Shown here: piece after piece, positions 5,259 to 7,311 of the stretch
Position numbering within the stretch: position 1 is the first letter of the stretch
How the letters are laid out: each line of letters starts with the position of its first letter
Assembly: GCA_019418195.1 (NCBI GenBank)
Contig: DYCJ01000021.1
Span: 5,557 to 19,288, forward strand
Direction: 5' to 3'
Source: Clostridiales bacterium
Lineage (GTDB): Bacteria > Bacillota > Clostridia > Lachnospirales > Lachnospiraceae
Length of the DNA stretch: 13,732 nt
The notes under the pieces: model-generated
Seen by the model: the letters and a program-made list of their open reading frames with translations, nothing else
Databases searched by the model: none
What the model was told of the DNA's origin: nothing
Position numbers and translations under genes: made by a program

Positions 5259-6968
5259 TTACAGCTGCCGCATTGTCTCAAATGTATTATACAGATTGAG
5301 CTGCCCGTAACCCCATTCCCGGTTGGGATACTCCATTGTCCTTGGGCGCACTGCACCAAGGATCAGAAGGCTCTTGATCTGAAAAGAATCAATGCCCGGG
5401 ACTTCCTGGATGTCAAGAAGCCATTCCAGCATCAGCGCTACAGCGCCGGATGTGACGGCAGCTGAGATACAGGACCCGGTGCGGGGCGAGAATCTGCCTC
5501 CGGGAAGTGCACCGGCAACATTGACGCCGGGGGCGGTGATATCAGGCTTGAGCCGTCCGGTACGTGTGTAACCTCTGCCTGAGGACTGGGAAACTGCGCC
5601 TGTCGTTCCGTTGTAATAGGACACGACCACGGGACTGTCAGCATTGGCCGGATTTGTCAGAGTGTAGTACGGATCAGATTCAAGGAAGAAGACTTCCCCG
5701 GTCAGGAATTCTGTCAGGGGAAGCCACATATGGAAGCGTCCGTCCGCGATCGTGAGCGGTTCTACAATGATCTTCCAGATGCCGGGAGCGGGCGCGTTAA
5801 AACGGAAGAATACCAGCTCAGAACTGCTCTTCTCCACAAGGAGCCGGTAGTCTATGGAGACCTTTGTGCGCTCGAAGAGAAAGTCAATCTCGGCACTGGC
5901 GCCGACCCGGAATGGGATACGTGATGTGTTTTCCCCCGAAGGTGAGATGATGGATATGGAGAGAATGTTGGGCACTTCGGTCCACAACTCCATAGAGAAG
6001 CCGGTTACATTTTCTCCAACCCTCAATTCTACTGTCTTTGTATCTTCTGTAGTTTCCAGTGTATTGAAATAATGGTGGCGTTTGTCCGCTTCATTTCCGG
6101 TGCCGATCACTGTGATGTGGTTTGCCCTTGTGCTGTAGCCCTCGATCAGAAAAGAAAAGGGCAGTGTGCCGATGTGTCCGCCCATGCTGGAACCGCATGT
6201 AATGCAGACGACCAGCGGCATCCCGAGACTGTCGGCAAGATCGTTCAGATATTTGAGCCCCAGCATCAGGTCGGTTTCCTGGTAGCAGACTGCATTATCA
6301 GGGATAAAATAATAGTCTCTCAGGTACTGCTTCGCCTGTTTCAGTTTGACCATAGCAATGGCTGCTTCCGGGGCGGCTCCGAGAAACTGCTCCCCGGCGT
6401 CAGCACCGCCCGCAGCAAGACTTGCTGCATAAGTGCCGTGCCCGCTGTCGTCTGTGGAGGGAACCAGTGTAAGCGGCTCTTCGGAACGGAGAGCGGCATC
6501 GATCTGCTCCTGTGTGTATTCACTGCCATAAGAGAAATCCCGGGGCGGAGTGCCGCTTTGTACCGTCTGATCCCAGATGGCGGCGATCCGGGTGGATCCG
6601 TCGAGATTCCGGAAAATATCATTAGTATAGTCGATCCCGCTGTCCATAAAACCGATCAGGATTCCGTTCCCTTTTAACTGCAGGGTGGGATAATTCTGGA
6701 CAGGAAGGATCCCGGTCTGATTCAGTGTCTCCATACTGATCGGAGAGTAACATTTCGGGATGGAGTTGTAAGAATATTTTGGAAGCGTGATCGGATCGGC
6801 TGCCGCGGCAGAGAGATAGATGCATTTATATCCGAATCCGGCATCCTGCTCGCAGTGGGCATCCCGGGTAATGCTGTCAAAAAAAGAAGTCCGTACATGA
6901 TTGCCGATAAAATCACGGTAATCCTCGGACAGAATGTTTTTCCTGCATGTTTCAAGATCTGATGGCAT
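5259..6968 (-). CDS. S8 (subtilisin/CspB-like) family protein with Cys at the nucleophile position
   Basis: This 569-residue protein belongs to peptidase family S8 and resembles the Csp-type subtilases of Clostridia. The Asp motif is MDSGID (D109), the His motif DDSGHGT (H177), and the oxyanion Asn lies in GTGNE (N292). The usual nucleophile motif GTSxAAA is here G498-S499-C500-I-S-A-A, and an ungapped alignment through VTSGAVAL puts Cys500 (TGT, complement of 5469-5471) on the catalytic Ser. A long insert (about 305-450) between N292 and the nucleophile is typical of this group. No signal peptide is visible, so the protein is cytoplasmic or exported unconventionally. The start is the ATG at 6968, with AAGGAGA eight bases upstream; longer frames lack such a site. 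It could be a pseudoprotease (as C. difficile CspA and CspC are), a thiol protease or a peptide ligase. The family is certain; activity is open. Confidence 0.9.
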   Translation of the reverse strand: MPSDLETCRKNILSEDYRDFIGNHVRTSFFDSITRDAHCEQDAGFGYKCIYLSAAAADPITLPKYSYNSIPKCYSPISMETLNQTGILPVQNYPTLQLKGNGILIGFMDSGIDYTNDIFRNLDGSTRIAAIWDQTVQSGTPPRDFSYGSEYTQEQIDAALRSEEPLTLVPSTDDSGHGTYAASLAAGGADAGEQFLGAAPEAAIAMVKLKQAKQYLRDYYFIPDNAVCYQETDLMLGLKYLNDLADSLGMPLVVCITCGSSMGGHIGTLPFSFLIEGYSTRANHITVIGTGNEADKRHHYFNTLETTEDTKTVELRVGENVTGFSMELWTEVPNILSISIISPSGENTSRIPFRVGASAEIDFLFERTKVSIDYRLLVEKSSSELVFFRFNAPAPGIWKIIVEPLTIADGRFHMWLPLTEFLTGEVFFLESDPYYTLTNPANADSPVVVSYYNGTTGAVSQSSGRGYTRTGRLKPDITAPGVNVAGALPGGRFSPRTGSCISAAVTSGAVALMLEWLLDIQEVPGIDSFQIKSLLILGAVRPRTMEYPNREWGYGQLNLYNTFETMRQL

Positions 6969-6992
6969 AATATATATCTCCTTGAGCATTCT

Positions 6993-7037: not shown

Positions 7038-7066
7038 CATCATATGCAGGAAGCGATGGGTGTATG

Positions 7067-7311
7067 AACAGTTCAGCCATCTGTCAGCTAGTCGCCGGAT
7101 CTTTATGCAGGCATAAATCCGTCTCCTGTTGACAGATGGCTGGCTTGGTGCAACAGTTCAGCCTGCGCCATTCGCAAAGCCGCACTTACGTGCTTACTGC
7201 GGCGCTGCCGCATCTTTGCTCATAAACGGGCGCTCATCTCATCTGTCAGCCAGTCGCCGGATCTTTATGCAGGCATAAATCCGTCTCCTGTTGACAGATG
7301 GCTGAACTGTT
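7067..7311. repeat. Composite inverted-repeat element with two 65-bp copies
   Basis: Perfect 20-base arms, AACAGTTCAGCCATCTGTCA at 7067-7086 and its reverse complement at 7292-7311, bound a 245-bp block. Inside are two direct copies of a 65-bp unit (7078-7142 and 7240-7304) that differ only at 7089/7251 (T/C). Each unit is itself a hairpin: CATCTGTCA pairs with TGACAGATG, around an inner stem TTTATGC/GCATAAA. The 97-base centre (7143-7239) repeats the arm start AACAGTTCAGCC at 7152-7163 and holds further stems (GCCGCA 7179-7184 with TGCGGC 7198-7203; GCAAAG 7174-7179 with CTTTGC 7214-7219). It has no coding capacity and I see no target-site duplication. A non-autonomous MITE/REP-like element is the best guess. 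Confidence 0.8.

Follow-up and report, generated by a model that had tools for sequence, protein, structure and literature searches.

A natural cysteine at the nucleophile position of a spore-germination subtilase, fixed across most of the genus Mediterraneibacter

What should be made of a subtilase in which a cysteine stands where the catalytic serine is expected? The question is raised by a gene at 5259..6968 on the minus strand of the window, that is, the whole 13,732-nt stretch of clostridial DNA that was analysed. The gene encodes 569 amino acids plus a stop from an ATG start at 6968. A sequence-only reading had placed a cysteine on the subtilase nucleophile within the motif G-S-C-I-S-A-A, with the remaining catalytic residues intact and alanine at the position of the conserved proline, and had likened the site to that of the engineered peptide ligase subtiligase. 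Translation of 5262-6968 (minus) bears this out: the 569 residues include Asp109 (6642..6644), His177 (6438..6440), the oxyanion-hole Asn292 (6093..6095), Ser499, Cys500 at the catalytic Ser position (TGT, the complement of 5469..5471), Ser502, and Ala504 (5457..5459), the equivalent of subtilisin Pro225, all on the minus strand. The site thus matches subtiligase at both positions, with a cysteine nucleophile and a small residue at 225. The start at 6968 has a ribosome-binding site, AAGGAGA, at 6977..6983 (minus), and an alternative open reading frame of 594 amino acids begins within a conserved promoter-like element.

Judged by its sequence, the protein is a subtilase by descent, with putative serine protease activity at most. 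It matches Peptidase_S8 above the cut-off (PF00082, E 1.2e-18), and has the Asp, His, and Asn of that family with Cys as the nucleophile. By profile and fold, it is a CspA/CspC-type spore-germination protein, an assignment that we base on homology, the promoter-like element, and genome content. The best NCBIfam matches were to two C. difficile models, CspBA, at profile positions 636-1099 in the CspA half, and CspC, and neither match reached the curated cut-off of its model. An AlphaFold2 model built from 60 aligned sequences (pLDDT 89.5, pTM 0.92) had C. difficile CspC (6mw4, E 3.8e-49) as its best Foldseek match, followed by the CspA homodimer, the CspC-CspA heterodimer, and then C. perfringens CspB, with 30% identity to the CspB structure 4i0w. 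In addition, the secondary structure of the model points to a jellyroll-like beta insert at residues about 311-430 (5679..6038, minus; boundaries estimated).

The comparison with known relatives brings out what is unusual. The protein has its fold, domain plan, and prodomain in common with C. difficile CspC and CspA, its best profile and structure matches. Those pseudoproteases carry two mutated triad residues (excerpts of PMC6636752), whereas here Asp, His, and Asn are kept and the nucleophile alone is changed. CspB of C. perfringens and C. difficile belongs to the same family and has the same order of Asp, His, and nucleophile, but the nucleophile is serine, and C. perfringens CspB reads GTSMAAP, with proline. 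Subtiligase and thiol-subtilisin have Cys and Ala at the equivalents of 221 and 225, as the Cys500 protein does. Subtiligase, however, was engineered from a degradative subtilisin, whereas the Cys500 protein is natural and has the jellyroll-like insert and a Csp-type prodomain. Hereafter, type A denotes the CspA/CspC-type gene studied here, and type B the second, CspB-like Csp of related genomes.

A cysteine codon seen in one assembly might be a sequencing error, a mis-assembly, or a mutation confined to one strain. For the family this explanation is refuted, and its probability is negligible. Our survey of the genus covered 58 genomes, one of which (G040) was excluded as yielding type-B-like fragments only; among the 57 with the gene, 49 had Cys and 8 had Ser, and no other residue occurred at position 500. 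Four of the 57 were read from the 59-locus set by coordinates, one Ser gene (L145) is partial, and one Cys gene (L146) is frameshifted. The latter is the gene of [Ruminococcus] faecis JCM 15917 (L146 / L049), which is frameshifted in that assembly. Across 76 distinct type-A loci we counted 49 Cys, 26 Ser, and 1 cut gene, with Asp, His, and Asn retained in all 49 Cys loci; these 49 loci and the 49 Cys genomes are overlapping, non-identical sets. Cysteine is encoded by both of its codons (TGC in 38 loci, TGT in 11), including among L001-L012, which are 85-98% identical, and is present in cultured isolates, among them M. catenae SW178 (L007), M. glycyrrhizinilyticus An427 (L041), and Clostridium sp. 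Marseille-P3244 (L016). The thought that homologs might all carry Ser, with this strain alone differing, fails as well, since Cys occurs in all of the best 120 protein matches. Asp, His, and Asn are present in 119 of these; in the other, P0061, Leu replaces the catalytic His (1 of the 137 Cys proteins among the matches listed). Three protein searches together list 285 proteins, 137 with Cys and 148 with Ser, a ratio that is not a frequency, as each search contributed at most its best 120 and relatives with Ser had been picked as the queries of the second and third searches.

A neighboring serine could in principle serve as the nucleophile. Ser499 and Ser502 are disfavoured in this role because some Cys variants lack one or both: L017 reads GACVSAA, without Ser499, and P0065, P0258, and P0260 read GACAAAA, without either, while Cys is kept throughout. 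The cysteine is fixed in a clade and matches subtiligase; therefore, as far as sequence can test, the ways in which the observation could have been overturned do not hold, and the cysteine at the nucleophile position is confirmed as real.

Within residues 79-569, column 500 is the only one that separates the two groups, being invariant in the 49 Cys loci and never Cys in the 22 Ser loci that lie outside a nested group with the motif GAS. The median dN/dS was 0.080 (54 usable of 150 sampled pairs, with dS near saturation). Together, the dN/dS, the codon usage, and this single separating column indicate that Cys500 is maintained. The Cys gene is the sole type-A copy in the surveyed genus genomes, except in the nearest genome compared, G001/G021 (Cand. 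Blautia stercoripullorum, DWUX01), which has a Cys gene, a Blautia-type type-A gene, and a type-B gene. This combination suggests a mis-binned metagenome-assembled genome.

The exchange of Ser for Cys probably took place in an ancestor of most Mediterraneibacter, and it is fixed across dozens of species. We built a 96-row tree from the window gene, 75 loci, and 20 of the 285 proteins, picked by motif or as representatives, with active-site columns excluded. All Cys rows and the nested Ser group fall in one clade with 100% SH-aLRT support; the nested group comprises 7 rows with GAS, one of them GSS, and the GACAAAA rows are its sister (support 81). Parsimony on this tree places two changes at position 500. 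Near outgroup Ser codons are AGC or AGT, so that the gain of Cys needs one transversion. The best tree favours a later return from Cys to Ser, but not significantly, as the AU test does not reject one undivided Cys clade (p-AU 0.27). An origin from an unrelated paralog or by transfer is disfavoured by the tree and by the place beside clpX, which part of the Cys and Ser loci have in common.

The alanine at the second subtiligase position has a different history. Among distinct loci, residue 504 is Ala in 48 and Val in 1 of the Cys loci, and Ala in 17, Gly in 6, and Ser in 3 of the Ser loci. Proline occurs in none of these, whereas P0153, which has Ser at 500, does have Pro. Ala504, the "P225A half" of the site, is thus older than Cys500. 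When Cys arose, the relief from steric strain described for P225A in thiol-subtilisin (excerpts of PMC7921005) was therefore already in place. The earlier suggestion that Ala at this position is common in Csp-like subtilases holds for CspA/CspC-type genes but not for C. perfringens CspB or the CspB-like paralogs, which have Pro.

Changes at the nucleophile extend beyond the genus. We drew 160 genomes evenly from the bacterial family, found a type-A match at E <= 1e-90 in 105, and read 135 genes (L168-L302), a set that does not contain those of G025 and G033. Position 500 was Ser in 116, Gly in 16, and Cys in 3, with no other residue, and position 504 was Ala in 125, Gly in 9, and Ser in 1. The three Cys genes (L196, L233, and L288, whose open frame does not reach Asp109) are each the sole type-A match of their genome. 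A quick tree of 170 rows, which is unrooted and so cannot tell gain from loss, has 59 open forks, and includes part of the genus Cys loci, requires 5 changes between Cys and other residues and 4 between Gly and others. Its four Cys groups lie far apart, pointing to about four apparent origins of the Cys nucleophile. The Gly-type Csps are the same gene type with the nucleophile likewise replaced and Asp, His, and Asn kept (16/16), which means that an intact Asp, His, and Asn is no proof of catalysis. They differ from the Cys500 protein, which has a thiol, in lacking a nucleophile, and 13 of the 16 are extra copies alongside a Ser copy, the remaining 3 being sole copies. The Gly genes are L252, L256, L266, L267, L270, L271, L274, L279, L280, L282, L284, L287, L292, L293, L294, and L296; some Gly Csp genes belong to tandem arrays, one of which, in G209 C6, has four within 7 kb.

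The surroundings of the gene bear on its role. It is convergent with clpX, and in 36 of 59 loci (25/39 Cys, 10/19 Ser, and the frameshifted L049) clpX is found no more than 2.2 kb away. Elsewhere it is missing from the available flank, as in the Ser gene of M. massiliensis (L042), and sometimes the sequence runs out. Because 14 of the 39 Cys loci (two with little downstream sequence), L042, and the Blautia gene L158 are not beside clpX, the shared place is only partial. In Dorea, Mordavella, and G042, all with Ser, Pfam identifies ligA and clpX at that place. Upstream, at 7039..7066 (minus), is a promoter element conserved in relatives, CATA-N16-CATATGAT, which resembles the sigma-E consensus. 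With a pattern framed after viewing 18 upstream regions, its strict form was found in 29 of 50 regions (the window and 49 loci, 10 of the 59-locus set being excluded) against 0.06 expected from mononucleotide shuffles, and its loose form in 42 of the 50, where shuffling predicts 1.0; on the reverse strand, the counts were 0/50 and 1/50. The Csps of C. perfringens are produced in the mother cell, according to excerpts of PMC9549277. Immediately upstream of the promoter-like site, at 7067-7311, is a MITE- or REP-like repeat that contains two 65-nt copies (98% alike) and ends in perfect inverted arms of 20 nt; the near-identical L001 is without it.

Related genomes also hold candidate partners for germination. 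SpoIVA was present in all 15 examined, as was a GerA-family match (split in two in G080). GerAC was found above the cut-off in 0 of the 15, with a weak sub-threshold match in G048 (E 6.7e-4). A strong PG-binding match occurred in 7 of 7 related genomes, with a second, weak match in G042. The corresponding open frame spans 422-439 codons in five genomes and is shorter in G031 and G025. Two of these frames read whole (425 and 432 amino acids) have a SleC-like architecture, and neither matched the curated SleC model. Finally, type-B genes are present: the two compared with profiles align to the CspB half of the CspBA model (E about 1e-118), and all 14 type-B loci read (L091-L104, 12 whole and 2 partial) have GTSFA[AVT]P, that is, Ser with Pro.

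A prodomain occupies residues 1-76 (6741..6968, minus). Its junction with the enzyme domain probably has Pro76 (6741-6743, minus) at P1, as inferred from an LYTS/CYAP motif and the predicted model; this placement rests on the LYTS motif described in excerpts of PMC3567191 and on a modeled strand at 73-76 followed by low confidence at 78-83. All 49 Cys loci have Pro at this probable P1 position, as do some Ser relatives. Proline is normally a poor P1 residue for subtilisins. A profile search of the prodomain against PDB chains returned no alignment. Conservation of the junction relative to the domain was 0.84 for Gly, 0.85-1.03 for the Ser groups, and 1.08 for Cys, and, with Gly and Ser alike, it is uninformative as a test of processing. 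Excerpts of PMC7921005 and PMC9126251 describe thiol-subtilisin as drastically reduced in activity, with P225A restoring it toward peptide esters, and its thioester as resistant to hydrolysis. In excerpts of PMC3567191, the prodomain of CspB remains in the active site, and that of Tk-SP persists in the bound state only when Ser is mutated to Cys. The weakness of thiol-subtilisin and the retention of the CspB prodomain suggest that the Cys500 protein would be capable of little catalysis, which would fit the part that CspA and CspC play as regulators.

With a probability of about one-half, we think that the protein is a prodomain-bound germination regulator with a thiol nucleophile that carries out, at most, slow, near-single-turnover chemistry. 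We lean toward regulation because members of the C. difficile CspA/CspC class are signaling pseudoproteases, and toward slow chemistry at most because subtilases with a thiol nucleophile make poor proteases. The mother cell would make the protein during sporulation and pack it into the spore, with its active site still clamped by the prodomain. The thiol may then permit slow acyl chemistry at most, such as one cut of the protein's own prodomain. Its main part would be that of regulator or sensor partner of a separate CspB-like Ser protease, which in turn would activate a SleC-like cortex hydrolase. A less probable but substantial alternative is that the protein is a true pseudoprotease, in which an inert thiol is tolerated, the prodomain stays uncut, and the function is binding only, as in C. 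difficile CspC and CspA. These are its nearest families and folds; Gly at the nucleophile needs four tree changes in the same gene type with Asp, His, and Asn kept, and Pro stands at P1 in every Cys locus. However, position 500 is limited to Ser, Cys, and Gly in the 135 family genes and to Cys and Ser in the genus, the Cys gene is the sole type-A copy in the surveyed genus genomes while 13 of 16 Gly copies accompany a Ser copy, and the best tree suggests one return from Cys to Ser, albeit not significant (AU p = 0.27).

Readings that grant the thiol more activity fare less well. We regard as rather improbable a working cysteine protease with SleC or coat proteins as substrates, whose thiol might put it under redox control and so restrict germination to reducing conditions. 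The hosts are gut anaerobes, the catalytic residues are all retained in 49 of 49 loci, and Ala504 leaves room for a thiol. Yet a canonical CspB-like Ser protease is available for cleavage in related genomes, the redox gating is only putative, and thiol-subtilisin has drastically reduced activity (excerpts of PMC7921005). A natural peptide ligase or transpeptidase, a counterpart of subtiligase that joins peptides in the spore, is highly improbable. It has Cys and Ala at the two subtiligase positions to recommend it, but Ala504 is ancestral in Ser genes and so is no adaptation for ligation, and the Pfam-named neighbors within the window suggest no donor or acceptor substrate. The sequence-only reading had left the function open between cysteine protease, transpeptidase or ligase, and pseudoprotease; our analysis leans toward a regulator that turns over little substrate or none, and the ligase finds nothing in its favour beyond the two residues. 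A broader proposal is that a natural cysteine-class subtilase, with the thiol serving as its nucleophile, evolved several times among germination Csps, and that slow thioester chemistry or the oxidation state of the thiol times the germination of gut anaerobes' spores; this strikes us as doubtful.

To our knowledge, the exchange of Ser for Cys at the nucleophile of subtilases has come only from engineering. Among the open-access papers listed by our literature searches, no title or abstract opening describes a subtilase whose nucleophile is naturally Cys, and a term search of PMC12445089 gave no hit for clan SB or subtilisin. On sequence evidence, the replacement of Ser by Cys in this germination subtilase is real and natural, fixed within a clade, and apparently recurrent, with putative chemistry. 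Lachnospiraceae Csps have been described with intact or catalytically competent triads (excerpts of PMC6636752, PMC12880746, and PMC6021603), and the genes with Cys or Gly at the nucleophile position disagree with that description. Within one bacterial family, a single germination gene occurs with Ser, with Cys, and with Gly, a series in which the passage from protease to signaling protein can be tested directly.

Some of the germination genes are interrupted. In Dorea phocaeensis (L303, G033) and in Cand. M. faecavium (L304/L305, G024), the cspB-like gene breaks at about query residue 259-272, with 6.6 kb and about 24 kb of sequence between its halves. A tandem pair of large serine recombinase genes closely precedes the downstream half, identified by the Pfam Resolvase and Recombinase families for L303 and by eye for L305, where one further open reading frame lies between. 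The arrangement resembles that of a germination gene carrying a skin-like intervening element. Split or partial cspB-like copies also occur in G040, G045, G073, and G075. Similarly, the sleC-like gene of M. catenae (L163, G025) is apparently interrupted by a serine-recombinase open reading frame, possibly another intervening element.
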